From Roseicyclus marinus (lineage in GTDB: Bacteria > Pseudomonadota > Alphaproteobacteria > Rhodobacterales > Rhodobacteraceae), in assembly GCF_036322625.1 (NCBI RefSeq), contig NZ_AP027266.1, positions 1,801,001 through 1,865,000 on the forward strand: a stretch of 64,000 bases of DNA, given 5' to 3'. The stretch's first letter is position 1, and every line of letters begins with the position of its first letter. A program made the translations under genes and the position numbers. Of the stretch, positions 19,429 through 31,637 are shown in pieces. The notes under the pieces are model-generated. The model was given only the letters and a program-made list of their open reading frames with translations. It was not told the origin of the DNA and searched no databases.

Positions 19429-19784
19429 CCGATCACCAGCCAATCGCCCGCGATATGCACCGGCACAGGGTCCAGCGCGCAACCCTGCCCCAGCCCGTCC
19501 AGCCCCTGCCCGGTGCAGGCATCGAATCCCGCATCATGGTTGGAACAGCGCAAGGTCGCGCCATCCGCAGACAGGATATTCCCCGACCGCCAATCCAGCG
19601 GCAGGTATTGGTGCGGACAGGCATTCACATAGGCCCGCACCCCCTCGGCACTGGCCACGAGCAGCACGGGGAACCCGTCCAGATCATGGCTTGCCACACC
19701 CGAAACCGGCACATCCACCGCCCGGCAGATCCGCGCGCCCGCCCCCGGTGCCCCCGGAAAATCGCGCCATGCGTCGTGGTTCAC
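19425..19784 (-). CDS. small Rieske [2Fe-2S] protein
   Basis: A 119-residue soluble Rieske ferredoxin-like protein. The cluster ligands are CPH (Cys56, His58) and CSNH (Cys80, His83), with the usual spacing. Translation starts at a GTG (19784) that overlaps the stop of fumarylacetoacetase by GTGA; no ATG keeps the full domain. It is the third gene of the tyrosine-degradation operon. It may donate electrons to an oxygenase or be an accessory of the pathway; no partner oxygenase is encoded next to it. Cofactor type is clear, the role is not. Confidence 0.85.
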   Translation of the reverse strand: MNHDAWRDFPGAPGAGARICRAVDVPVSGVASHDLDGFPVLLVASAEGVRAYVNACPHQYLPLDWRSGNILSADGATLRCSNHDAGFDACTGQGLDGLGQGCALDPVPVHIAGDWLVIG

Positions 19785-21019
19785 GGCGCCACCGGCGCGG
19801 GCAGGATCACCCCCTCGCACGTCCCGAAGCCCAGGGAATAGCCCCCCTCGCACCAGCCGCGAAACACCACCCCGTCCCCGTCTTGCAGGAAATCGCCCCT
19901 CTTGCCGTTCTCGGTCAGCTCCAAAAGCGACCCGCAACTCTCCGGGATTGGCCCCGAAATCGTGCCCGATCCGATCAGATCGCCCACCTCCATCGCGCAG
20001 CCCGATATCGCGTGATGGGCGACCTGCTGCGCGGCGGAATAATAGAGATGCCGCGCATTCGTCCGCACGATGGTCCGCGCCGCCTGCCCCTCGGGGGCAA
20101 GCGCCACCTCCAGATGCAGGTCGAGGTTCCGATCCTCCCCCTCCGCCAGGTAGGGCAGCAAATCCACCTCCCGCGCGGGCGGGGCGACCCGGAAGGGCTC
20201 CAGCGCCTCGCGCGTCACCACCCATGGGCTGATACTCGTGGCGAAAGCCTTGGATTGAAACGGCCCGAGCGGTTGGTATTCCCAGACCTGCACATCCCGC
20301 GCCGACCAATCGTTGAGCAGGACAAAGCCGAAAATCATTTCCCAGGCCTCGGCCGTAGTCACAGGTTGCCCCATCCCGCTCCCCGTCCCGATCACCGCCC
20401 CCAGTTCCAGCTCGAAATCGAGCCTTTCGCTCGCCCCAAGGCGGGGCAGCACCTCGCCCGCCCCCTTCAGCTGCCCCAAGGGCCGGCGCACAGGTGTGCC
20501 CGACACCACGACCGTCGACGCCCGCCCGTTGTAGCCGATGGGCATGTGCAGCCAATTCGGCGGCAAGGCATTCTCGGGCCCGCGAAACATCGTCCCCACA
20601 TTGGTCGCATGCTCGCGCGAGGCGTAGAAATCCGTGTAGCTGCGCACGAAAATCGGCAGATGCATCACCACATCCGCCTGCGCGACAAGCGGCAGGTCCC
20701 GCCGCCCCCCCTCGGCATCCAGCAGCCCCACCAACGCGCCCCGCACCTTCGACCAGGCCGCAGGCCCCAGCGCCATGAACGGGTTCAACACACCCGCCCC
20801 GAACACACACCGCCCCGGCGCGGGCACGACCAGCCCGCCCTCCTCCAGCGCACTCACGTCAAGGATCATCTCCCCGATGGCCACCCCCACCCGGGCCGCG
20901 CCCCCGCCTTGCGAAAACACGCCCCAGGGCAGGTTCTGGATCGGAAAGGCGCAGCCCGCCGCATTGGCGCTCTCGACCCAGGACCGTCGCGCCGGATCAT
21001 GCGTCTTGTTCAACGTCAC
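19781..21019 (-). CDS. fahA: fumarylacetoacetase
   Basis: Hydrolyses fumarylacetoacetate to fumarate and acetoacetate, the last step of tyrosine and homogentisate breakdown. The 412-residue protein shows the two-domain FAH layout, with the active-site region YTDFYASREHATNVGTMFRG near 127-146. Downstream motifs include FELELGAVIGTG, NDWSARDVQVWEYQPLGPF, SKAFATSISPW and GTISGP. Length matches bacterial FAH. It overlaps hpd by ATGA and is coupled to the Rieske gene. Homogentisate dioxygenase and maleylacetoacetate isomerase are not in this operon and must be elsewhere. Confidence 0.94.
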   Translation of the reverse strand: MTLNKTHDPARRSWVESANAAGCAFPIQNLPWGVFSQGGGAARVGVAIGEMILDVSALEEGGLVVPAPGRCVFGAGVLNPFMALGPAAWSKVRGALVGLLDAEGGRRDLPLVAQADVVMHLPIFVRSYTDFYASREHATNVGTMFRGPENALPPNWLHMPIGYNGRASTVVVSGTPVRRPLGQLKGAGEVLPRLGASERLDFELELGAVIGTGSGMGQPVTTAEAWEMIFGFVLLNDWSARDVQVWEYQPLGPFQSKAFATSISPWVVTREALEPFRVAPPAREVDLLPYLAEGEDRNLDLHLEVALAPEGQAARTIVRTNARHLYYSAAQQVAHHAISGCAMEVGDLIGSGTISGPIPESCGSLLELTENGKRGDFLQDGDGVVFRGWCEGGYSLGFGTCEGVILPAPVAP

Positions 21020-22125
21020 TCGCCCGCCGCCTTCAGCACACCGCGCTCGATTTGGTCGCGCTCGATCGACTCGAACAGCGCCTTGAAATTCCCCTCGCCA
21101 AAGCCGTCATCGCCCTTGCGCTGGATGAATTCGAAAAAGATCGGCCCGATCACGGTCTTGGAGAAGATCTGGAGCAAGATCCGCGTCATCCCCCCGTCCA
21201 CGACCCCCTCGCCATCGATCAGGATACCGTGCTGCATCATCCGCGCGATGGGTTCCTCGTGGCCCTGCACGCGCTTGTGGCTCATCGCGTAATAGGATTT
21301 GGGCGGGGGCGGCATGAATTCGATCCCATTGGCCGCGATCTTGTCGACGCTGGCATAGATGTCGCGCGTGGCCACCGCGATATGCTGGATCCCCTCGCCC
21401 TTGTATTCCCTCAGATATTCCTCGATCTGGCTCGTATCATCGGCGCTTTCGTTGATCGGGATGCGGATCTTGCCACAGGGGCTTGTCAGCGCGCGGGAAT
21501 AGAGGCCCGTCTGCTGCCCCTTGATGTCGAAATACCGGATCTCGCGGAAATTGAACGCCTTGGCGTAGAAATCATACCAGGTGCTCATGTTCCCGCGCTG
21601 CACGTTATGCGTCAGGTGGTCGAGGTAATAGAACCCCGCCCCCTCGGGCCTCGGGTCCGGCTCTCCCAACCAGTCATACTCCGCTGCATAGGGGCTGCCC
21701 GCCTCCCCGTAGGTGTCGACGAAATACAAAAGCGATCCGCCGATGCCCACCACGGCGGGCACATCCAGCGATTTGCCGGGGCCGGAATATTCCTCCGCCC
21801 CATAGTCCAGCGCACATTTCAGCGCGTGGTCTGCATCCACCACCCGCCAGGCCATCGCGGGCGCGCAAGGCCCGTGTTCGGCGACAAAGGCCGCCGCATG
21901 GCCGTCCGGGTCGCGGTTCAGCAGATAGGTGATGTCGCCCTGCCGGTAGAGCGAGATGTCGCGCGACCTGTGCCGCGCCACCTCGACATATCCCATCGCG
22001 GTGAAGAGCTCTTCCAGCTCCTCCGGCTCGGGATGGGCGAATTCGACGAATTCGAACCCGTCCGTGCCTGCGATGTTCAGGGCGTTTATGGTCGCTTTCG
22101 GGGCATCATGGGGAAAAGGTCCCAT
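21016..22125 (-). CDS. hpd: 4-hydroxyphenylpyruvate dioxygenase
   Basis: Converts 4-hydroxyphenylpyruvate to homogentisate with Fe(II) and O2. The 369-residue protein has two glyoxalase-like domains. The iron ligands are His170 (LDHLTHNV), His248 (GIQHIAV) and Glu332 (FFEFIQRKGD), with the spacing seen in characterised bacterial enzymes. The ATG follows GGGAGGACCGC. It heads the hpd-fahA-Rieske operon. A 16-base sequence upstream (22256-22271) recurs just before the tryptophan dioxygenase gene, which suggests shared control. Confidence 0.95.
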   Translation of the reverse strand: MGPFPHDAPKATINALNIAGTDGFEFVEFAHPEPEELEELFTAMGYVEVARHRSRDISLYRQGDITYLLNRDPDGHAAAFVAEHGPCAPAMAWRVVDADHALKCALDYGAEEYSGPGKSLDVPAVVGIGGSLLYFVDTYGEAGSPYAAEYDWLGEPDPRPEGAGFYYLDHLTHNVQRGNMSTWYDFYAKAFNFREIRYFDIKGQQTGLYSRALTSPCGKIRIPINESADDTSQIEEYLREYKGEGIQHIAVATRDIYASVDKIAANGIEFMPPPPKSYYAMSHKRVQGHEEPIARMMQHGILIDGEGVVDGGMTRILLQIFSKTVIGPIFFEFIQRKGDDGFGEGNFKALFESIERDQIERGVLKAAGE

Positions 22126-22277: not shown

Positions 22278-23681
22278 TCAGGCCGAATAGCGCGTGGCCC
22301 CCCGCCGCCGCTCGTCCAGTGGCTCGGCCATGACCAAAGCATGATGGGCGCGCTGATCGCATTGGCTGCGCGGGCAGATCCGGCAATTGATCCCGATCTC
22401 GGTCACGGGCGCGCCGGCGGCGGTCAGCGTATCGGCATAGCCGATGGCCGCCGCATGATCGACCGCACACCCCATGGCGACGGCCAGCCGCACATCTTGC
22501 GTATGGCGTGCGAAACTCGGCCGGTCGACCGTGCGCGAGAACACCATGAACCGGCTCTGGTCGGGCATCTCCACCAATTGCGGCACGATCCGCCCCGGCG
22601 TACGAAACGACATATGCACCTCCAGCCGCGGACAGGCCCCGCCATGTTCGGCCAGGTGGAAATCGGTCGAATTGAACCGCTTCGTGACATTCCCCGCCTT
22701 GTCGATGCGCAGGAAAAAGAACGGAACCCCCTGCGCGCCCCGCCGTTGCAGGGTCGTGGCCCGGTGGCAGGCCTGTTCGAAACTGACCCCGAAGCGTGTG
22801 GCCAGATGGTCGAAATCGTAGCGCGACGCCAGCGCCTCGGCCAAAAACGGGCCATAGGGCATCAACACGGCGGCGGCGAAATAATTCGCCAATTCCACCC
22901 GGCAGCGCGCCCGGTCATGCGCATCGGCCAGACCCGCCTCCGACAGGAGCGCGTCGAAAATATCGCGCTCTTCGATCAATCCCGCCACATGCACCAGCTG
23001 GAACACCCGGTTGGGATGGTCCAGGGCTTCTGATAGAAGAATGAGCCGCCGCCCCTCGTCATATTCCCGCAAGGTGCGCGGCATCTCGGCCACCGGCACC
23101 AATTGCACCCGCAAGCCCAACCGCGCCATCAGCCGCTGCTTGAGGCTCGCATAGACATCATCCGTCGCAGGCGCCGCTCCGTCCCAAAACGCCTCTGCCG
23201 CCTGTTCCAGCGCCGGAAAGTGATTCCTGTTCTTGCGAAAGAAGTCGTGAACCGCCTCCTCGGGCGAGGCTTGCAGCAAGGCCCGCGCCCCGTCGCCCGC
23301 CTCCACCACGCTCATCAACTGGTCGGTCGTGGCCAACCACGACCGATGCAACCGCAGAAAACAGGCCGCCAGATCCGGCGCATGGCTCAGCGCCGCGCGC
23401 ATCTGCGCCAGATCGGGCCGCTCCCCGTCGAACAAGGGATCGGCCAGCGCCGCGCGCAGATCGGCCAGATGCGCGGTATCCTCGTCATCGGCCAGATCGC
23501 GCCAATCGACGCCATAGGTCTCGAACAGCTTCAACAGGACCGGAACCGAAACCGACCTTTCGTTCTTTTCCAACAGGTTGACATAGGATGTCGAAATCCC
23601 CAGCGCCTTGCCCATCTGGGCCTGCGTCTGGCCATGATCGACGCGCAACCGCCGCAGCCTCGGACCGATGAAGGTTTTCAT
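22278..23681 (-). CDS. COG3800/ScfR-type transcriptional regulator (XRE HTH)
   Basis: A 467-residue regulator with an N-terminal XRE helix-turn-helix (RLRRLRVDHGQTQAQMGKAL..STSYVNLLEKNERSVS). A central IrrE/ImmA-like domain has the region RVELANYFAAAVLMPYGPF, and the C-terminal family domain ends in a cysteine cluster (GINCRICPRSQCDQRAHH). This is the short-chain fatty acyl-CoA regulator family (RamB, PccR), whose members sense acyl-CoAs and control acetate, propionate or glyoxylate metabolism. The ATG at 23681 starts the HTH; longer in-frame sequence runs into an AT-rich promoter. It is divergent from the malyl-CoA lyase cluster, which is its most likely target. Confidence 0.85.
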   Translation of the reverse strand: MKTFIGPRLRRLRVDHGQTQAQMGKALGISTSYVNLLEKNERSVSVPVLLKLFETYGVDWRDLADDEDTAHLADLRAALADPLFDGERPDLAQMRAALSHAPDLAACFLRLHRSWLATTDQLMSVVEAGDGARALLQASPEEAVHDFFRKNRNHFPALEQAAEAFWDGAAPATDDVYASLKQRLMARLGLRVQLVPVAEMPRTLREYDEGRRLILLSEALDHPNRVFQLVHVAGLIEERDIFDALLSEAGLADAHDRARCRVELANYFAAAVLMPYGPFLAEALASRYDFDHLATRFGVSFEQACHRATTLQRRGAQGVPFFFLRIDKAGNVTKRFNSTDFHLAEHGGACPRLEVHMSFRTPGRIVPQLVEMPDQSRFMVFSRTVDRPSFARHTQDVRLAVAMGCAVDHAAAIGYADTLTAAGAPVTEIGINCRICPRSQCDQRAHHALVMAEPLDERRRGATRYSA

Positions 23682-23700
23682 GCCGTTGTATACCGTGGAT

Positions 23701-23732
23701 TTTACAAGTTCACGGAAATCATAACATGTAAA
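23701..23732. promoter_or_regulatory. inverted repeat TTTACA-N20-TGTAAA in divergent promoter
   Basis: The AT-rich interval between the ScfR-type regulator (start 23681) and the malyl-CoA lyase cluster (start 23823) contains TTTACA (23701-23706) and TGTAAA (23727-23732). On the regulator strand the inner part reads GTGAACTTGTAAAATCC, which resembles the AACTTTGCAAA-type sites I recall for RamB. It is a candidate autoregulatory operator. AT content is clearly above the neighbourhood. Confidence 0.45.
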
Positions 23733-23822
23733 TTCTCGCATTCACAGCAGGACCCGGAAGCTTTTTGAAACCGGCCGGGCCGAAGGCATGGTCTTCCCAC
23801 ATCCCGCATGGAGGAAGTCCGG

Positions 23823-24293
23823 ATGCCCAGCCGCCAGCGCCACCTTGGCCCGTATGTGACCACCCAGCCAACAGGTCACTGTGCCGAAATCCGCATTTTC
23901 CCCTGCGCCACAGGAACCGCCTGGCAAGCCATCCTCGCCACGGCCCTCACCCCCCGTGACAGGGTTGTGGTGCTGGGCAGCGACGGGGCCGCGCGGGCCT
24001 GGGGCCAGATCGCCCATCAGGCCGGTCTCAGGGTCGAACTGCTCGAAACCCCGACCCCCAAGACCATCGCCCGCCGCATCGGCGCGGATCGTTTCGGAAT
24101 GCTCAAGGCCGTGCTTGTGGTGGCGGACCATGTGGACCCCCATGTGGTGCGCGCAGCCCTCGACACCGCCTTCCACGACGCGCTCCTCCTTGTCGATGCA
24201 AGCAAAGCACCTGCCCCCGATCTGGCCGGGGCCCATGCCGATATCGTCCTGACCGATCCGCGCGCGGGCCTCGCCCGCCTCGCCGCCGAATAA
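23823..24293 (+). CDS. truncated class V aminotransferase-like protein (SgaA-like)
   Basis: A 156-residue protein whose whole length lines up with the middle of serine-glyoxylate aminotransferase. IFPCATGTAWQAILATAL matches the FPASGTGIWESAL-type segment, LKAVLVVADHVDP matches KAVMVVHNETATG, and ALLLVDASKAP matches ALLFVDGVSS. At the expected SQKG segment with the PLP-binding lysine it reads DPRAG (Arg147), and the protein ends nine residues later. It should therefore be catalytically dead as an aminotransferase. The ATG at 23823 follows GAGGAAG by five bases; the ATG at 23808 lies before that site. It precedes malyl-CoA lyase, a glyoxylate enzyme, by 22 bases. Alignment is from memory. Confidence 0.6.
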   Translation: MPSRQRHLGPYVTTQPTGHCAEIRIFPCATGTAWQAILATALTPRDRVVVLGSDGAARAWGQIAHQAGLRVELLETPTPKTIARRIGADRFGMLKAVLVVADHVDPHVVRAALDTAFHDALLLVDASKAPAPDLAGAHADIVLTDPRAGLARLAAE

Positions 24294-24315
24294 CCCCGCT
24301 CCAAGGACCCCGCAC

Positions 24316-25272
24316 ATGTCCCACACGCTCCACCCCCTCCGCCGCCAGCGCCTGCAGCGTTCGGAACTGGCCGTTCCCGCCTCCAACCCCACGATGATCG
24401 ACAAGGCCGCGACCTCCGCCGCCGATTACGTCTTTCTCGACCTCGAAGATGCCGTGGCACCCCCCGAAAAGACGCAGGCCCGCAAGAATGCGATCGAGGC
24501 GCTCAACGACATCGACTGGGCCGGCTTGGGCAAGACCGTCTCGGTCCGCATCAACGGGCTCGACACCCATTACATGTATCGCGACGTGGTCGACGTGATG
24601 GAACAGGCGGGCGACCGGGTCCACACGCTCCTCGTGCCCAAGGTCGGCGTGCCCGCCGATCTCTACATGGTCGAGGCACTGGTCAACCAGATCGAACAGG
24701 GCACTGGCGTTGAAACCCGCGTGGGGATCGAGGCGCTGATCGAAACAGCGCTCGGCATGGCCAATGTGGAGGCCATCGCCCAATTCGGCGGGCGGCTCGA
24801 GGCGCTCCATTTCGGCGTCGCCGATTACGCGGCCTCCATGCGCGCGCGCACCACCAATATCGGCGGGCTCAACCCCGATTACCCCGGCGATCAATGGCAT
24901 GCTTCGATCACGCGCATGGTCATCGCCTGCCGCGCCTATGGCTTGCGCGCCATCGACGGACCTTTCGGCGATTTCTCCGACCCCGACGGCTATGTCGCCG
25001 GTGCCCGCCGCGCCGCCGCCCTTGGCTGCGAGGGCAAATGGGCCATCCACCCCAGCCAGGTCGCCATGGCCAACGAGGTGTTCAGCCCCCCCGAGGCCGA
25101 GGTGACCAAGGCCCGCCGCATCATCGCGGAACTCAAGGCCGCCGAGGCGCAGGGCAAGGGCGCCGCCAGCCTCGACGGCAAGATGATCGACGCCGCCTCC
25201 GAGAAGATGGCGAAAAACGTGATCGACATGGCCGAAGCCATCGCCGCCCGCGCCCCCCTCGCCGCCGAATGA
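24316..25272 (+). CDS. mcl: L-malyl-CoA/beta-methylmalyl-CoA lyase
   Basis: A CitE-family lyase of 318 residues that cleaves malyl-CoA to acetyl-CoA and glyoxylate, and reversibly condenses propionyl-CoA with glyoxylate. Key motifs are VFLDLEDAVAPPEK (Mg-site acidic residues near 37-43), SVRINGLDTHYMYRD, RVGIEALIETALG and FGVADYAASM. The sequence closely follows Rhodobacter Mcl1. It is encoded with malate-CoA ligase and with Meh and Mct homologues, so it could also act as (S)-citramalyl-CoA lyase, as the Chloroflexus enzyme does. That third activity is inferred from context. Confidence 0.93.
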   Translation: MSHTLHPLRRQRLQRSELAVPASNPTMIDKAATSAADYVFLDLEDAVAPPEKTQARKNAIEALNDIDWAGLGKTVSVRINGLDTHYMYRDVVDVMEQAGDRVHTLLVPKVGVPADLYMVEALVNQIEQGTGVETRVGIEALIETALGMANVEAIAQFGGRLEALHFGVADYAASMRARTTNIGGLNPDYPGDQWHASITRMVIACRAYGLRAIDGPFGDFSDPDGYVAGARRAAALGCEGKWAIHPSQVAMANEVFSPPEAEVTKARRIIAELKAAEAQGKGAASLDGKMIDAASEKMAKNVIDMAEAIAARAPLAAE

Positions 25273-25316
25273 CCCGGCCCCGTCCCCCAAACCACCCATC
25301 CCCCGCTGCCCCGTAG

Positions 25317-25335
25317 GGTGGGCAATCTGCCCACC
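25317..25335. repeat. GGTGGGCA hairpin repeat between mcl and mtkA
   Basis: GGTGGGCA-ATC-TGCCCACC forms an 8-bp stem with a 3-base loop in the 123-base spacer. I recall the sequence CGTAGGGTGGGCAA...TGCCCACC as a dispersed repeat in roseobacter genomes, but cannot count copies here. The rest of the spacer is a CCACCC-rich stretch without other recognisable sites. It could modulate mRNA levels between mcl and the ligase genes. Confidence 0.5.
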
Positions 25336-25395
25336 ACCCCCGCCCACCACCCCGGCCCACCCCCGCCAACCACCCGCCCAGAAAGGACCTCGCCC

Positions 25396-26571
25396 ATGGA
25401 CATCCACGAACATCAGGCCAAATCCATCCTGTCCGATTTCGGCGTCCCCGTGCCGCGCGGCCATCTCGCCTTCAGCCCCGAACAGGCCGCCCATGCCAGC
25501 CGTCAACTCGGCGGCCCCTGCGTGGTCAAGGCGCAGATCCATTCCGGCGGGCGCGGGGCCGCAGGCGGCGTGCGGCTCTGCCAGACCGAGGGTGAGGTGC
25601 GCAGCTTCGCCGCCTCCCTCCTTGGCAAGACCCTCGTGACGAAACAGACAGGCGCGACAGGCAAGATCGTCGAACGCCTCTGGATCGAGGAAGCCACCGA
25701 CATCGCGCAGGAAATCTACCTCGGCTTCGTCCTCGACCGGAAATCCGAGCGCATCATGATCGTCGCCTCCGGCCACGGCGGGATGGAGATCGAGGATCTG
25801 GCGGAATCCGATCCCGACAGCCTCGTGCGCATGGTCATCGACCCCGCCGCAGGCCTTGTCGATTACCAGGCCCGCGAACTGGCCTTCCGCCTCGGCCTTT
25901 CGGGCAAGCAGATCGGCCAATTCGTCACCACCTTGCGCGCCTGCTACCGCGCCTATCGCGATCTCGACGCGATGATGGTCGAAATCAACCCGCTCGCCAT
26001 CACGGGCGCGGGCGATCTGGTCGCGCTAGACGCGAAAATGTCCTTCGACACCAACGCCCTCTACCGCCGCCCCACGGTCGCAGCGCTGCGCGATCCGGGG
26101 CAGGAAGACCCGCGCGAGGCAAGCGCCCATGACAACGGTCTGGCCTATGTCGGCCTCGACGGCGACATAGGCTGCATCATCAACGGCGCAGGCCTCGCCA
26201 TGGCCACGATGGACATGATCAAGCTCGCGGGCGGCGCGCCCGCCAATTTCCTCGACATCGGCGGCGGCGCCTCGCCCGAACGGGTCGTCACCGCCTTTCG
26301 CACCGTCCTGACCGATCCCAATGTCGGCGTGATCCTCGTCAACATCTTCGCGGGCATCAACCGCTGCGACTGGATCGCCAAGGGCGTCGTGCAAGCCTAC
26401 CAGGAGGTCGGCCTGACCCTTCCCGTCATCGTCCGCCTCTCGGGCACGAACGTCGAGGAAGGGCGCGAGATCATCCGCCAATCCGGCCTGCCCCTCCTCT
26501 CCGCCGACACGCTGGCCGAGGCCGCCAGACTGGCCGTCCGCGCCCGTCCCACCCCCCTTGCCGCCGAATAA
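25396..26571 (+). CDS. mtkA: malate-CoA ligase beta subunit (succinyl-CoA synthetase beta family)
   Basis: A 391-residue ATP-grasp subunit. Visible motifs are the N-terminal [12 protein letters not shown], the nucleotide-binding region [42 protein letters not shown] and the [17 protein letters not shown] loop ([17 protein letters not shown]). The family includes succinyl-CoA synthetase and malate thiokinase. Linkage to malyl-CoA lyase, as in serine-cycle operons, favours malate as substrate: malate + CoA + ATP to malyl-CoA. The alpha subunit gene follows after 12 bases. A succinyl-CoA synthetase role cannot be ruled out from the sequence alone. Confidence 0.85.
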
Positions 26572-26583
26572 GGACCCCAGACC

Positions 26584-27480
26584 ATGGCCATTCTGATCAC
26601 CAGGGATACCCGCGTCATCATCCAGGGCATGTCCGGCCGCATCGGCCAATTCCATGCCGAGGAGATGATCGCCTATGGCACGAATGTCGTGGGCGGCGTC
26701 ACGCCGGGCAAGGGCGGCGAAACGCTTCTCGGCCGCCCGCTGTTCAACACCGTCCGCGAGGCGGTGGAGGCGACGGGCGCCGATGCCTCCCTCCTCTTCG
26801 TGCCCCCCGCCTTCGCCGCCGACGCGATGATGGAGGCCGCCGATGCGGGCATCAAAACCGCCGTCTGCGTCACCGATGGCCTGCCCGCCCAGGACATGAT
26901 GAAGGTCAAACGCTTCCTCAAACGCTACCCGCGCGAGCGCAAGATGCGCCTCATCGGCCCCAATTGCGCAGGGATGATCAGCCCCGGCATCGGCTTCATG
27001 GGCATCATGCCGCCCCATATCTACAAACAGGGCCGCGTCGGCATCGTGGGCCGCTCGGGTACGCTCGGCTACGAGGCCGCCTCCCAGATGTCGGCCCTCG
27101 GCATCGGCGTCTCGTCTTCCATCGGCATCGGGGGCGATCCGATCAACGGCTCCTCCTTCCGCGACATCCTCGAGCTGTTCGAGAATGACGAGGACACAGA
27201 TGCCGTGATCATGATCGGCGAAATCGGCGGCCCGCAGGAGGCGGAGGCCGCACAATTCGTCCGCGACCACATGACAAAACCGGTCGCGGCCTATGTCGCG
27301 GGCCTCTCCGCCCCCAAGGGCCGCAAGATGGGCCATGCGGGCGCGATCATCTCGGCCTTTGGCGAAAGCGCGCAGGAAAAGGTCGAAATCTTGCAAGATG
27401 CGGGGATCATGGTCGCGCCCAACCCCTCCTCCATGGGCGACACCGTGGCCCGGATGCTCGGCCACAAGGTGGCGGCATGA
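26584..27480 (+). CDS. mtkB: malate-CoA ligase alpha subunit (succinyl-CoA synthetase alpha family)
   Basis: A 298-residue CoA-binding subunit. It begins with the CoA-binding Rossmann domain (RVIIQGMSGRIGQFHAEEM) and has the conserved IGPNCAGMISPG, GIVGRSGTLGYEAA and IGIGGDPINGSSF segments. The phosphorylated histidine is His251 in MGHAGAIISAFG. It overlaps the Meh gene by ATGA. Together with the beta subunit it would activate malate for the lyase encoded upstream. Confidence 0.85.
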   Translation: MAILITRDTRVIIQGMSGRIGQFHAEEMIAYGTNVVGGVTPGKGGETLLGRPLFNTVREAVEATGADASLLFVPPAFAADAMMEAADAGIKTAVCVTDGLPAQDMMKVKRFLKRYPRERKMRLIGPNCAGMISPGIGFMGIMPPHIYKQGRVGIVGRSGTLGYEAASQMSALGIGVSSSIGIGGDPINGSSFRDILELFENDEDTDAVIMIGEIGGPQEAEAAQFVRDHMTKPVAAYVAGLSAPKGRKMGHAGAIISAFGESAQEKVEILQDAGIMVAPNPSSMGDTVARMLGHKVAA

Positions 27481-28355
27481 GCCGCGTGGAATCCTTCGCC
27501 ATGGCGACCCTGCGCGACGCCGAGGATTGGATCGGCCGGACCGAGGAACGCTGGGGCTGCCTGACGCCGGAACTGGCGGGCATGATGTCGGCGGCGGTCT
27601 CCCATCCCCTGTCCCTGCCGCGCGACACGCGGCGGGGCGGGCTTCTGCCCCGGCTCTGGCATTGGGCGGCCTTCCCCGAATTCGTGCCGCTCGCCCAACT
27701 GGGTCAGGACGGCCACCCCGAACTGGGGGATTTCCTGCCGCCCCTGGCCTTTCGCCGCCGCATGTGGGCGGCGGGCGCGCTGACCTTTCACGGCTCCCTG
27801 CGCATCGGGGAACGGCTCCGCCGCAAATCCACCATCCGCTCCGTCACGCCCAAATCGGGGGCCACGGGCGACATGGTCTTCGTCACCGTCGACCACCAGG
27901 TCGAAGGCGAAACCGGCAGTTTCGTCGAGGAACGGCAAGATATCGTCTACCTCCATATCCCCGAGGTCTTCACGCCCCCCAAACGCCTCCCCGAACTGGA
28001 AAATCCCGATTTCGACGAAACCGTGGCCATCACCGAGGCGCGGCTCTTCCGCTTTTCGGCGGCCACCTTCAACGCCCATCGCATCCATTACGACCTGCCC
28101 TATGCACAACAGGTCGAAAAATACCCCGCCCTCGTCACCCATGGGCCGATGCAGGCGATCATGCTGATGGAAACGGCCAAGCGCCACACCGGCGTGCCGC
28201 CCAGGCGCTTCAGCTTCCGGGGGGTCCATCCGATGTTCCACAACCACGACCTGCGCCTGCAGGGCAAGCTTGCCCCCAATGGCAAGACCATGGAACTCGG
28301 CACCGCCACGCCCGAGGGCTATCTTGGCATGACCGCACAGGCGGAGTGGGATTGA
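27477..28355 (+). CDS. meh: mesaconyl-C4-CoA hydratase (Meh-like, MaoC/HTD2 family)
   Basis: A 292-residue hot-dog-fold hydratase with an N-terminal FAS1-type dehydratase half and a C-terminal MaoC-like half (SAATFNAHRIHYDLPYAQ.., with the Asp/His pair of the family). Meh of the 3-hydroxypropionate bi-cycle hydrates mesaconyl-C4-CoA to (S)-citramalyl-CoA. Size and domain order fit. The gene overlaps mtkB by ATGA and shares one base with the Mct gene (TGATG), a tight unit that supports a joint pathway. Beta-hydroxyacyl-ACP dehydratases of HTD2 type are the alternative. Confidence 0.75.
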   Translation: MSRVESFAMATLRDAEDWIGRTEERWGCLTPELAGMMSAAVSHPLSLPRDTRRGGLLPRLWHWAAFPEFVPLAQLGQDGHPELGDFLPPLAFRRRMWAAGALTFHGSLRIGERLRRKSTIRSVTPKSGATGDMVFVTVDHQVEGETGSFVEERQDIVYLHIPEVFTPPKRLPELENPDFDETVAITEARLFRFSAATFNAHRIHYDLPYAQQVEKYPALVTHGPMQAIMLMETAKRHTGVPPRRFSFRGVHPMFHNHDLRLQGKLAPNGKTMELGTATPEGYLGMTAQAEWD

Positions 28356-29593
28356 TGGGCGTTCTCAACGGTATGCGCGTCGTCGAATCCTCCGCCTTCG
28401 TAGCCGTGCCGCTGGCGGGCATGACTTTGGCGCAGATGGGGGCCGAGGTGATCCGCTTCGACCTGCCTACGGGCGGCATGGATGCGACCCGCTGGCCCAT
28501 CGCGCCGAACGGCCAAAGCCTGTTCTGGGCGGGCATGAACAAGGGCAAACGCTCCATCGCCATCGACGTGAAAACGCCGCGCGGGCGCGAAATCGCGCAG
28601 GAAATCATCTGCGCCCCGGGCGACGACGCGGGGCTTTTCATCACCAATCTCGCAACGCCCGGCTGGACCGATCACGCGACCCTTGCCGCTCGCCGCGCCG
28701 ATCTGGTCTCGGTCACGCTGCGCGGCGACCGCCACGGGCGGCCCGCCGTCGATTACACCGTCAATCCCGCCGTGGGCTTTCCCATGGCCACCGGCCCTGA
28801 GGGATCGACCGACCCGGTGGCCCATGCGCTGCCCGCATGGGATGCCATCGCGGGCGGGCTCGTCGTCTCGGGACTTCTCGCCGCTGAACGCCACAGGCTC
28901 CGCCACGGCACGGGCCAGGCCGTCGATCTGACGCTGAAAGACGTGGCCGCGGCCATGCTCGGCCATCTGGGCATCATCGCCGAACACGCGCTGACAGGCC
29001 AAACCCGGGGGCGCGCGGGCAACAGCCTTTACGGGGCCTATGGTCAGGATTTCCAATGCGCCGACGGCAGGCGCGTCATGGTCATCGGCCTGACCGCGCG
29101 GCAATGGCAGAACCTCCTCAAGGTCACCGGGCTGTCCGAACCCATGGCAGCGCTCGCCACGGCCCTCGGCGCCGATTTCCGGGACGAGGGCGCGCGCTGG
29201 CACGCCCGCCACGCGATCACCGCGATCCTTTCCCCGTGGTTCGCCGCCCGCAGTGTCGCCGATTTCGCCGAAAGCTTCGACCGCGCAGGCGTCACATGGT
29301 CCGAATTCCGCAGCTTTTCCCAAGCGATCGAGGAAGACCCCGACCTGTCGCCCGACAACCCGATCTTTTCGCAGATCGACCAACCGGGCCTTGGCCGCTT
29401 CCTCGTCCCCGGCACGCCCTTCGGCTTTTCCGGTCACGAGCGCGAAACCGTCACCCCCGCGCCGCTTCTGGGCCAACACACGGAAGCCGTGCTTGCCGAT
29501 GTCGCGCGCCTGCCCGACCACGAGATCGCTGAGCTGTTCGATCAGGGCATCGTCACCCAACCGGGGCGGGAGGCGCTCCGCCGCGCCTCCTGA
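28355..29593 (+). CDS. mct: mesaconyl-CoA C1-C4 CoA transferase (Mct-like, CaiB/BaiF family III)
   Basis: A 412-residue family III CoA transferase. The N-terminus GMRVVESSAFVAVPLAGMTLA, the CoA-contact region GMNKGKRSIAIDVKTPRGRE and GNSLYGAYGQDF are visible. Unusually for the family, the segment carrying the catalytic aspartate near residue 160 (VDYTVNPAVGFPMATG) is of the Mct type. Length is close to Chloroflexus Mct (about 409). It would move CoA within mesaconate from C1 to C4. It ends three bases from the convergent kynureninase gene. Formyl-CoA transferase-like activity on another acid is the alternative. Confidence 0.75.
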   Translation: MGVLNGMRVVESSAFVAVPLAGMTLAQMGAEVIRFDLPTGGMDATRWPIAPNGQSLFWAGMNKGKRSIAIDVKTPRGREIAQEIICAPGDDAGLFITNLATPGWTDHATLAARRADLVSVTLRGDRHGRPAVDYTVNPAVGFPMATGPEGSTDPVAHALPAWDAIAGGLVVSGLLAAERHRLRHGTGQAVDLTLKDVAAAMLGHLGIIAEHALTGQTRGRAGNSLYGAYGQDFQCADGRRVMVIGLTARQWQNLLKVTGLSEPMAALATALGADFRDEGARWHARHAITAILSPWFAARSVADFAESFDRAGVTWSEFRSFSQAIEEDPDLSPDNPIFSQIDQPGLGRFLVPGTPFGFSGHERETVTPAPLLGQHTEAVLADVARLPDHEIAELFDQGIVTQPGREALRRAS

Positions 29594-29596
29594 GCC

Positions 29597-30784
29597 TCAC
29601 GTCACAGCCTGCCGCGCGCGGTATTCGGGACGGTCCCACAACCTGTCCCGGATGACCTCCTCGAGGATAGAGGCCGCGCGGATCACCTCGTCTTCCGAGA
29701 CGTAAAGCGGGGTAAAGCCGAACCGCATGATATCGGGCGCGCGGAAATCCCCGATCACATCCCGCGCAATCAACGCCTGCATCGCGGCATAGCCCTGCTC
29801 GAACCGGAACGACACCTGGCTGCCCCGCATCGCGGCATCGCGCGGGCTCGCCAGCACCAGCTCCGGGCAGCGCGCCTCCACCTCCGCGATAAAGGTCTCG
29901 CACAAGGCGACCGAGGCCGCGCGGAGCGCCGCCATCTCCACGCCCTCCCAGACCTCCAGCGCCGCTTCCAGCGCGGTCATCTGCAAGACAGGCGGCGTGC
30001 CCACCCGCATCCGCGCCACCCCGGGGCCGGGCCGATAATCCAGATCGAAGGCAAAGGGCGCTTCATGCCCCAACCATCCCGCCAGCGCGGGCCGGACCCT
30101 ATCGGCCAGATCGGGCCGGACATAGATGAAGGCCGGCGCGCCGGGACCGCCGTTGAGATACTTGTAGCTGCAGCCCACCGCGAATTCCGCGCCGCATCCC
30201 GCCAGATCGACCGGCACCGCGCCCGCGCTATGGGCCAGGTCCCAGATCACCACCGCGCCAACCGCATGCGCGCGCGCCGTGATCGCCGCCATGTCATGCA
30301 TCCGGCCGGTGCGGTAATCGACCTGCGTCAGCATCACCACCGCGACCTCTTCGGTGATCGCATCGGCGACATCTTCGGGCTCGACCAGCCGCAACTCGTG
30401 GCCTTGATCCAGATGGGTTAACAAACCCTTTGCGATGTAGAGGTCCGTTGGGAAATTCCCAAGATCTGACAGGATCTGTTTACGTTTCGGTGAGATTTGG
30501 AGCGCCGCCGATAACGCCTGGTAAACCTTGATCGACAGCGTGTCGCCCATCACCACGCTGCCCTCAGGCGCCCCGATCAGCCGCCCGACCGCATCGCCAA
30601 CCCGGGCCGGCTGCGCCATCCACCCGTCAAGGTTCCACCCCTTGATCAGATGCGCGCCCCATTCCTCCGTCACCGCCCGCGCCAGCCGCGCCGGAACCGA
30701 TTTCGGCAATGGCCCCAAGGAGTTGCCGTCCAGATAGATCATCCCCTCGGGGATATCGAACAGATGTTTGCGCAAGATCGTCAT
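29597..30784 (-). CDS. kynU: kynureninase
   Basis: A PLP enzyme that cleaves kynurenine to anthranilate and alanine. The 395-residue protein has the family start YLDGNSLGPLPKSV, the cofactor region WDLAHSAGAVPVDL with the PLP-contact Asp182, and the Schiff-base lysine Lys208 in GCSYKYLNGGPG. The late segment DFRAPDIMRFGFTPLY is typical. It overlaps kynA by four bases. Kynurenine formamidase (kynB) is not in this operon. Confidence 0.95.
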   Translation of the reverse strand: MTILRKHLFDIPEGMIYLDGNSLGPLPKSVPARLARAVTEEWGAHLIKGWNLDGWMAQPARVGDAVGRLIGAPEGSVVMGDTLSIKVYQALSAALQISPKRKQILSDLGNFPTDLYIAKGLLTHLDQGHELRLVEPEDVADAITEEVAVVMLTQVDYRTGRMHDMAAITARAHAVGAVVIWDLAHSAGAVPVDLAGCGAEFAVGCSYKYLNGGPGAPAFIYVRPDLADRVRPALAGWLGHEAPFAFDLDYRPGPGVARMRVGTPPVLQMTALEAALEVWEGVEMAALRAASVALCETFIAEVEARCPELVLASPRDAAMRGSQVSFRFEQGYAAMQALIARDVIGDFRAPDIMRFGFTPLYVSEDEVIRAASILEEVIRDRLWDRPEYRARQAVT

Positions 30785-31611
30785 AGCTGCCCCCTGACCT
30801 GCCAAAGCTCGGGAAACAGCTCCACCTCCAGCATCCGCCGCAGATATTGCACCCCCGATGTCCCGCCCGTGCCCCGTTTGAAGCCGATGATCCGCTCCAC
30901 CGTGGTCACGTGATTGAACCGCCAACGCCGAAAATAGTCTTCCAGATCAACGAGTTTCTCGGCCAGCTCGTAGAGTTCCCACTGCTCTTGCGGCGCCTCG
31001 TAGACCCGCGCCCAGGCGTCCCGGATCGCGTCCTGGGCCTGATGCGGGGCCTCCATCCGGTAATGCTCCGAAAAATCCTGCTCCATCGCCGCGCCAAGCC
31101 GGTCAAGTGCCACATGATAAAGGGATTTTTCCGCCACTTCCGCCACCAGCGCGGCATGAAGCGCGGGCCTGTGTTCATGCACCTTCAGCATCGCCATGTT
31201 GCGATTGCCCAGCATGAATTCGATGCGCCGATACTGATGTGACTGGAATCCCGAGGATTTTCCCAGATCGTCGCGAAAGGCCGTGTATTCGGACGGTGTC
31301 ATTGTCCTGAGCACGTCCCAGGCCCCGTTCAACTGCTCGAATATCCGCGCCACCCGCGTCAACATCTTGAAAACAGGCCTTATTTCACCACCCGCAAGAC
31401 CCGCGCGCGCCGCCGTCAATTCATGGATCGCAAGCCGCATCCACAATTCGCTCGTCTGGTGCTGGATGATGAACAGCATCTCGTCATGCGCATCGGACAG
31501 CGGCTTTTGCCCCTCCAGCAAGCCTTCGAGCGCAAGGTAATCGCCGTAGCTCATCTCCCGCGCATAGGACATCTGCGCGCCGTCAGAGGCGGGATCATAG
31601 GCGTCGGTCAT
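30781..31611 (-). CDS. kynA: tryptophan 2,3-dioxygenase
   Basis: A heme enzyme that opens the indole ring of tryptophan to give N-formylkynurenine. The all-helical 276-residue protein keeps the heme ligand His234 in RFNHVTTVERIIGFK, the active-site His51 in MLFIIQHQTSELWM, and the C-terminal RGTGGTSGVQYLRRM loop. The ATG at 31611 starts the normal N-terminus. A TTG further upstream overlaps the shared 16-bp element and was rejected. No strong ribosome-binding site precedes the start, so translation may depend on other features. Confidence 0.95.
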   Translation of the reverse strand: MTDAYDPASDGAQMSYAREMSYGDYLALEGLLEGQKPLSDAHDEMLFIIQHQTSELWMRLAIHELTAARAGLAGGEIRPVFKMLTRVARIFEQLNGAWDVLRTMTPSEYTAFRDDLGKSSGFQSHQYRRIEFMLGNRNMAMLKVHEHRPALHAALVAEVAEKSLYHVALDRLGAAMEQDFSEHYRMEAPHQAQDAIRDAWARVYEAPQEQWELYELAEKLVDLEDYFRRWRFNHVTTVERIIGFKRGTGGTSGVQYLRRMLEVELFPELWQVRGQL

Positions 31612-31621
31612 GGCAGGGTTC

Positions 31622-31637
31622 CGTTGCAAATGCGATG
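31622..31637 (-). promoter_or_regulatory. 16-bp element shared with hpd, directly upstream of kynA
   Basis: CATCGCATTTGCAACG in the gene direction, ending 10 bases before the kynA start. It is identical, in the same orientation, to the element before hpd at 22256-22271. A protein bound here would cover the kynA translation or transcription start and so would probably repress. Confidence 0.5.

Follow-up and report, generated by a model that had tools for sequence, protein, structure and literature searches.

A six-gene operon of Roseicyclus marinus is read here, with a slight leaning in favor of that reading, as encoding a drain that carries mesaconyl-C1-CoA, the intermediate at which the ethylmalonyl-CoA (EMC) pathway branches, to pyruvate and acetyl-CoA. 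The operon lies on the plus strand at 23808–29593 of the 64,000-nucleotide stretch that we analyzed (the window; contig NZ_AP027266.1, positions 1,801,001 to 1,865,000). It encodes, in this order, an aminotransferase fragment, a malyl-CoA lyase (Mcl), both subunits of malate-CoA ligase (MtkA and MtkB), a Meh-like hydratase and an Mct-like CoA transferase. In the proposed drain, Mct would shift CoA from C1 to C4, converting mesaconyl-C1-CoA to mesaconyl-C4-CoA. Meh would hydrate the latter to (S)-citramalyl-CoA, and the operon Mcl, or a second Mcl encoded elsewhere in the genome, would cleave citramalyl-CoA to pyruvate and acetyl-CoA. When Ccr and the remaining EMC enzymes supply it, the drain would have the net reaction acetyl-CoA + CO2 + 2 NADPH → pyruvate + 2[H], as derived from established pathway chemistry. 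It would bypass pyruvate synthase in an oxygen-tolerant way. MtkAB and Mcl could also make glyoxylate from malate. With the mesaconyl-C1-CoA hydratase (Mch) running in reverse, glyoxylate and propionyl-CoA could also feed this drain, an arrangement that resembles the lower half of the 3-hydroxypropionate bi-cycle.

Gene content and enzyme identities

The original prediction, made from the sequence alone, described six co-directional genes with short gaps or overlaps and named an SgaA-like fragment, Mcl, MtkAB, and Meh-like and Mct-like proteins. Open reading frames, with start codons checked, and family scans bore out both the arrangement and all the gene identities. mtkB and meh overlap by 4 bases, and meh and mct by 1 base. 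The general family labels were aspartate/serine-glyoxylate type aminotransferase, HpcH/CitE superfamily lyase, FAS1_DH-type hydratase and family III CoA transferase. Gene identities and catalytic residues were observed directly, and the activities given below are predicted.

The product of mct (28355–29593, plus strand) matched two solved structures, 7xkg (478 bits), which we take to be the Roseiflexus Mct, and 8apq (477 bits), the Chloroflexus Mct, with which it shared 53% identity. The next family scored 117 bits, so the protein was not placed with formyl/oxalate CoA transferases, an outcome that the original prediction had considered. The best family model was TIGR04253 (2-methylfumaryl-CoA isomerase) at 505 bits, and the runner-up scored 103 bits. 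The equivalog cut-off of this model (725 bits) was reached neither by the window Mct nor in any of the 295 Rhodobacteraceae genomes of our family sample (one per genus) or the 398 genomes of our phylum sample. A protein from a mct-meh-mch cluster scored 558 bits, also below it. This cut-off shuts out every sampled proteobacterial Mct-like protein. Asp165, Arg47, Tyr136 and Asn100 were retained in all 85 aligned proteins, including the window Mct. Catalytic roles of Asp165 and Arg47 are described in the available text of PMC9196870 and PMC9813914. A chance match or misannotation was ruled out by the scores and the residues. The closest named relatives were from Roseicyclus (84 and 83% identity). 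The product in 14 plasmid records with Mct homologues was given as "CoA transferase" in 12 and acyl-CoA transferase in one; the remaining record had no feature.

Residues that seal the active site of the Chloroflexus Mct around CoA are described in the accessible part of PMC9813914. Several of these cork residues are replaced in the window Mct (L43M, R75K, F101L, R104P and R314G). At the positions proposed to mark membership, Leu/Ile43 and the adenine cork R75, F101 and R104, it has M43, K75, L101 and P104. Among the 85 aligned proteins, Leu43 was found in 82, Arg104 in 71, Leu101 in 84 and Arg75 in 22; Leu101 and Gly314 are the rule in the Mct family. Met43 was also present in two congeneric genomes with mct-meh-mch clusters (L130 and L132), and it was therefore not read as a loss of function. 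Loss of the catalytic site from the window Mct was considered and not seen, and the cork changes are partly family-wide. Judged from these residues, exclusivity of the window Mct for intramolecular CoA transfer is not assured.

meh (27477–28355, plus strand) encodes a mesaconyl-C4-CoA/itaconyl-CoA hydratase-like protein. It had two credible PDB matches of one kind, itaconyl-CoA hydratase, the best being 8khg (172 bits over 255 residues). With these solved relatives, the placement among fatty-acid dehydratases that the original prediction had envisaged was not found. The conserved core of Meh was seen in 13 aligned proteins, a comparison without any Chloroflexus Meh sequence. The product of itaconyl-CoA hydratase is (S)-citramalyl-CoA, according to the part of PMC12290011 that was available. 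mtkA (25396–26571, plus strand) encodes the SucC-like subunit of malate-CoA ligase and scored 657 bits against the NCBIfam malate-CoA ligase beta model NF010647 (cut-off 604). mtkB (26584–27480, plus strand) encodes the SucD-like subunit; it scored above the cut-offs of succinate-CoA ligase alpha models and is the partner of mtkA in relatives.

Meh and MtkA bear on an explanation that we consider very improbable, catabolism of itaconate, mesaconate or methylsuccinate. MtkAB would then activate the free acid, Meh and Mcl would degrade it, and Mct would sort the CoA isomers. The best solved Meh relative, an itaconyl-CoA hydratase, agrees with it, as does a Paraburkholderia plasmid with mct between methylsuccinyl-CoA-dehydrogenase-like and CoA-transferase-like genes. 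However, MtkA lies above the cut-off of a malate-specific model, and most meh-mct pairs among the 80 named loci (the best 80 returned for Mct out of 489 confirmed candidates; most, not all, from Rhodobacteraceae) have no mtk ligase beside them. The characterized Mct does not accept free acids, as stated in the available text of PMC9196870.

mcl (24316–25272, plus strand) encodes a lyase of the serine-cycle type. Its best match was 5ugr (400 bits), presumably the Methylobacterium enzyme, followed by 4l9y, the R. sphaeroides enzyme (313 bits). In the tree, all operon-type lyases formed one clade beside 5ugr, and they have in common a loop about 16 residues shorter. The tri-functional lyase type of Chloroflexus (4l7z) was not found in the operon, where Mcl grouped with 5ugr. 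Because of this grouping with the serine-cycle type and not with the tri-functional type, we only infer that the operon Mcl cleaves citramalyl-CoA. A second Mcl is encoded in the same genome at 3156666; it is 52% identical to the operon Mcl and groups with the R. sphaeroides (Rhodobacter-type) enzyme.

The first gene (23808–24293, plus strand) is an SgaA/BhcA-like aminotransferase remnant of 161 amino acids. It covers residues 54–172 of the 395-residue model NF045640, and the C-terminal half is missing. A serine-glyoxylate aminotransferase is thus not intact in the window operon; copies elsewhere in the genome were not searched for. The fragment also occurs in two Roseicyclus loci (L046, ~3781; L047, ~5479), and the gene is full length in all 11 other mct-linked operons of the sampled genomes. 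One full-length copy (L056) scored 573 bits against BhcA, under the cut-off of 650. The remnant was 34–48% identical to the full protein, and the window fragment was 45–49% identical to the other two, versus 83–93% for mcl, mtkAB, meh and mct. Between its stops, the remnant still spans roughly 170–210 open codons in the three Roseicyclus-like genomes, yet it diverges fast. The remnant may be decaying, or it may be retained for translation of mcl.

The content sga-mcl-mtkA-mtkB is that of serine-cycle operons. The operon could accordingly be a serine-cycle remnant for C1 assimilation, with meh-mct carried along or converting serine-cycle acetyl-CoA to pyruvate. This gene content and the sister position of Mcl to 5ugr are in line with such an origin. 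Judged from the operon itself, we regard it as improbable, since the aminotransferase is only a fragment in the window and the two Roseicyclus loci, where the other five genes are well conserved.

Operon conservation and the source genome

Conservation of the operon was observed directly. Among the 80 named loci, a meh match stood by mct in 74, the whole run mcl-mtkA-mtkB-meh-mct was found in 12, and a contig end lay inside the run in 3 more. This conserved gene order indicates that the operon is not due to chance. In the family sample, Mct was found in 48 of the 295 genera. The mct neighborhood was viewed in 47 of these 48 genomes (not G176); several neighborhoods stop at a contig edge, that of G098 inside meh. 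mtkAB was linked to mct in 12 of the 47, including the window. In these 12 operons, the aminotransferase was full length in 11, the window being the exception, and a divergent scfR gene was seen in 11, the exception being G144. G144 (L027/L148) also has mtkA-mtkB-mct without meh in between, and the sole Meh-family match of this genome is distant and lies on another contig. On the Mct tree, where 18 of 104 tips were mtk-linked (a few tips being one gene with two ids), the linked state required 5 changes against a shuffled mean of 16.9. The union of mtkAB with mct is therefore old or repeated.

Other partners of mct were found elsewhere. The order mct-meh-mch was present in L155, and L154 and L164 carry mcl, an mcl-like gene, mct, meh and mch. 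A CitE/Ccl-like lyase gene directly follows meh-mct in four named loci (L054, L057, L062 and L069); the two lyases that were scored (L057 and L069) had RipC/Ccl as the best model, below its cut-off. On the Paraburkholderia plasmid (L208), a methylsuccinyl-CoA-dehydrogenase-like gene overlaps mct, and its product scored 686 bits against 8ciw, a solved (2S)-methylsuccinyl-CoA dehydrogenase. On an Azospirillum plasmid (L207), a dehydrogenase gene lies two genes from mct, within 2 kb; its product scored 733 bits against 6es9, labeled acyl-CoA dehydrogenase, which we take to be a methylsuccinyl-CoA dehydrogenase. No Meh, Mch or Mcl was seen in L207 or L208. Relatives of these dehydrogenases adjoin mct in L156 and lie about 2 kb off in L152. 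The partner genes (mch and those for Ccl-like lyase and methylsuccinyl-CoA-dehydrogenase-like proteins) mark neighboring reaction steps.

The source genome is one contig of 3.55 Mb. ccr was found at 2876443 (608 bits) and Mch at 550972–551904, with a CitE-like protein nearby at 549330. Mch scored only 59 bits against Pfam MC_hydratase, which by itself suggested a negative; comparison with PDB instead indicated a true Mch, with 407 bits to 8hgn, a solved beta-methylmalyl-CoA dehydratase, and 386 bits to 4e3e, a MaoC-domain dehydratase and presumably a Chloroflexus protein. The original prediction had described the mesaconyl-C1-CoA hydratase as the missing step. It is outside the operon, as stated, but it is not missing from the genome. 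Of the genes proposed for a genome search, mch and ccr were thus found, and visual inspection of the 19 kb surrounding ccr revealed neither ecm nor mcd, for which no dedicated search was made. The genome contains the whole lower half of the bi-cycle (Mcl, Mch, Mct and Meh), as well as ccr, mch and the Rhodobacter-type mcl of the EMC pathway. No isocitrate lyase scored above the cut-off in this genome; the only candidate, a PrpB-like protein, scored 284 bits and so fell short of the prpB cut-off (354). From these scores, a methylcitrate cycle is neither shown nor excluded.

Loss patterns across Rhodobacteraceae

Co-occurrence and loss patterns were observed directly in the family sample, and the direction of flux is predicted. 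Mch was called at E 1e-50 and isocitrate lyase at E 1e-60; for genomes not on the printed match lists, status was assigned by difference. Mch was found in 264 and ccr in 272 of the 295 genera, and ccr was present in 47 of the 48 Mct genomes. Mch was absent from 31 genomes, and ccr was retained in 9/9 of those with Mct versus 7/22 of those without it (Fisher p 0.0008). The same comparison in genomes at least 90% complete gave 5/5 versus 6/19 (p 0.011). Limited to the five genomes with meh beside mct (G021, G166, G207, G224 and G274), it gave p 0.0098. The genomes are not independent, though there is one per genus; G030, G166 and G274 lie close together on the Mct tree.

The Rhodobacter-type Mcl was absent in six of the nine genomes with Mct and without Mch (G021, G030, G083, G166, G207 and G224) and broken in a seventh. 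In the latter (G274), mcl is a pseudogene with several stops and a deletion, and it has the same neighbors as in the genome of the window. This Mcl was present in 37 of 38 tested genomes with both Mct and Mch. The serine-type Mcl stood beside mtkA in 8 of the nine (the form in G224 being more distant), with scfR in 5/8 and the aminotransferase in 6/8. With any neighbors, it occurred in 16 or 17 of the 39 genomes with both Mct and Mch; tests with 15 and 17 gave p 0.009 and 0.024, respectively.

The original prediction had linked propionyl-CoA plus glyoxylate, through mesaconyl-C1-CoA, to pyruvate and acetyl-CoA. With Mch in the genome, this route is complete on paper, but the main input could well be mesaconyl-C1-CoA made directly by the EMC pathway, because several relatives without Mch or the Rhodobacter-type Mcl keep ccr and mct, and most of them meh. 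In C. sphaeroides, Mch mutants were isolated as acetate-negative, according to the available text of PMC12632250. A genome with ccr and without Mch and isocitrate lyase would therefore need another exit for growth on acetate, and Mct-Meh-Mcl may be one such exit. Isocitrate lyase was searched for in 80 genomes and matched in only 3, none of them among the 48 Mct genomes.

Several observations weigh against the drain. Mch was found in 39 of the 48 Mct genomes versus 225 of the 247 without Mct, and no enrichment of Mct with Mch was found. ccr persists in seven genomes that lack both Mch and Mct. Four of the nine genomes with Mct and without Mch are less than 90% complete, and two of the nine (G068 and G164) keep the Rhodobacter-type Mcl. 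The Mct of G068 and G083 falls outside the main Rhodobacteraceae clade of the Mct tree, and in G021 the serine-type mcl, 313 codons long, is interrupted by an in-frame stop at codon 296. No Meh match was found in G030. In G083, G164 and G068 the Meh-family match is not beside mct, and these distant proteins may be another enzyme; of 32 tested genomes lacking Mct, 10 also had Meh-family matches. Among 15 genomes without ccr, Mch and Mct (G018, G058 and G094, for example), 12 had no isocitrate lyase match. The lack of isocitrate lyase thus forces no other exit, and many family members may simply not grow on acetate. The cork changes in Mct, the unlocated ecm and mcd, and the operator scores given below point the same way. 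We weighted down both the drain and the wider proposal made below because of the 12/15 result, the stop in the G021 lyase and the position of the G068 and G083 Mct.

The loss patterns also bear on a partial 3-hydroxypropionate bi-cycle for propionyl-CoA and glyoxylate. MtkAB would make malyl-CoA, Mcl would release glyoxylate, Mch would run backwards, and Mct, Meh and Mcl would follow, for a net of malate + propionyl-CoA + ATP → pyruvate + 2 acetyl-CoA, with MtkAB in place of the Chloroflexus CoA transferase. mcl-mtkAB and meh-mct form one operon, the source genome encodes each of Mcl, Mch, Mct, Meh and MtkAB, and mct-meh is joined to mch in L154, L164 and L155, all of which suit this scheme. 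The part of PMC6593406 available describes, for Kentron and others, partial bi-cycles that lack the key enzymes of the carboxylation side, and in C. sphaeroides the genes for propionyl-CoA carboxylase are under the control of the ScfR-family regulator PccR, as reported in the accessible text of PMC12632250. The scheme needs Mch, yet six Mct genomes have neither Mch nor the Rhodobacter-type Mcl, a seventh has this Mcl broken, and Mct is not enriched with Mch. We consider it unlikely, though a serious competitor.

The favored drain may have replaced the second half of the EMC pathway in some relatives. A wider proposal, which we put forward tentatively and with more doubt than confidence, is that some Rhodobacteraceae have a distinct acetyl-CoA assimilation. 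It would combine the carboxylating first half of the EMC pathway with Mct, Meh and a serine-type citramalyl-CoA lyase and so convert acetyl-CoA and CO2 to pyruvate, without isocitrate lyase or the glyoxylate/propionyl-CoA exit. Mch and the Rhodobacter-type Mcl would have been displaced in several lineages. In the lineage of the window, both exits would coexist, the new one under an ScfR-type, probably CoA-ester-sensing regulator.

Regulation, flanking genes and comparison with known systems

scfR (22278–23681, minus strand) is divergent from the operon and encodes an XRE/IrrE-like transcription factor of the short-chain acyl-CoA regulator family (Pfam ScfRs, 190 bits). It scored 345 bits against NCBIfam RamB, under the cut-off of 700. 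Its open reading frame opens at 23741, and a start at 23681 (MKTFIGPRL) is suggested by the relative L049 and by conserved non-coding sequence upstream. RamB of Paracoccus, of the same regulator family, binds CoA esters of the EMC pathway, according to the available part of PMC10370305. By analogy, the window ScfR may sense such CoA esters.

An operator-like element lies at 23699–23757, with TTTACA-type boxes followed by TGTAAA-N8-TTCACA-GCAGGACCCGG (23727–23757). The pattern was matched in 24 of 30 scfR-linked promoters, the same pattern having been used to collect the sites, and variants were seen by eye in the other 6. These promoters stood before mcl-mtkAB-meh-mct (22), before mcl-mtkAB without meh-mct (5) and before meh-mct alone (3). 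A weight matrix from the 24 training sites was run on 105 upstream stretches (some being one locus with two ids) and 525 shuffles. Stand-alone meh-mct pairs had no ScfR operator in this search; their best score was -1.5, and the training sites scored 46.7 to 74.8. Four stretches (L185, L101, L032 and L083) exceeded the best shuffle (-14.0), and L101 and L032 are identical in sequence. Co-regulation of the stand-alone pairs by the same operator was therefore unsupported. An AT-rich box like CATTTGATTTTTT was seen by eye about 100 bp upstream of several of them (e.g., L084, L086, L096, L061 and L054), which suggests a different regulator.

A scan for promoter and terminator consensus sequences did no better than with shuffled sequences. 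The minus-strand flanks (19784–22125 and 29600–31629) encode fumarylacetoacetase, 4-hydroxyphenylpyruvate dioxygenase, kynureninase and a tryptophan 2,3-dioxygenase that fell narrowly short of its cut-off. These genes belong to aromatic amino acid breakdown, and no clear tie to the operon was seen.

How acetyl-CoA is converted to C3 and C4 units without isocitrate lyase is a central question, largely answered by the EMC pathway. An oxygen-tolerant exit from this pathway to pyruvate would, if true, be a further answer in a widespread marine and aquatic family, and a natural template for designed CO2-fixing routes with the same enzymes. In one survey, Mct family model matches below E 1e-99 counted as evidence of a key enzyme, and the remaining pathway was checked afterwards, according to the text available of PMC9802188. 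The best Mct matches of all 48 Mct genomes were below E 1e-99 (E-values for one genome), and 47 of the 48 carry ccr. The Mct family model is an unsafe marker of 3-hydroxypropionate autotrophy. The literature searched, whose coverage excluded most subscription journals, did not describe a mct-meh-mtkAB operon in Rhodobacteraceae.

In the second cycle of the bi-cycle, the reaction order is Mct, Meh and citramalyl-CoA lyase, as given in the accessible parts of PMC8307300 and PMC3832036. The window module resembles this cycle of Chloroflexus and Roseiflexus in the 53% identity of Mct, the retained catalytic residues and the same predicted reaction order. It differs in having malate-CoA ligase where Chloroflexus has succinyl-CoA:malate CoA transferase, in its serine-type lyase and in the location of Mch elsewhere in the genome. 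Bi-cycle enzymes are reported in Chloroflexi, several Gammaproteobacteria, Accumulibacter and one alphaproteobacterial symbiont; Rhodobacteraceae are not among the groups named in the available text of PMC6593406. The partial bi-cycles of Accumulibacter, Kentron and other proteobacteria are similar in keeping most enzymes but lacking the two that are key to autotrophy, as the same partial text states for Kentron, and the mcl-mct-meh-mch clusters of L154 and L164 are of this kind. Unlike them, the window operon adds mtkAB, the aminotransferase remnant and the ScfR regulator, in bacteria with the EMC pathway. Itaconate and methylsuccinate degradation (Ict, Ich and Ccl) has a Meh homologue in Ich and citramalyl-CoA as a common intermediate, but its CoA transferase activates a free acid (PMC12290011, part available), whereas Mct would move CoA within one molecule. 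With the EMC pathway of Rhodobacter and Paracoccus, the window module has mesaconyl-C1-CoA in common, and ccr and mch are in the source genome; in contrast to that pathway, it would add an exit to pyruvate, either replacing glyoxylate and propionyl-CoA or standing beside them.

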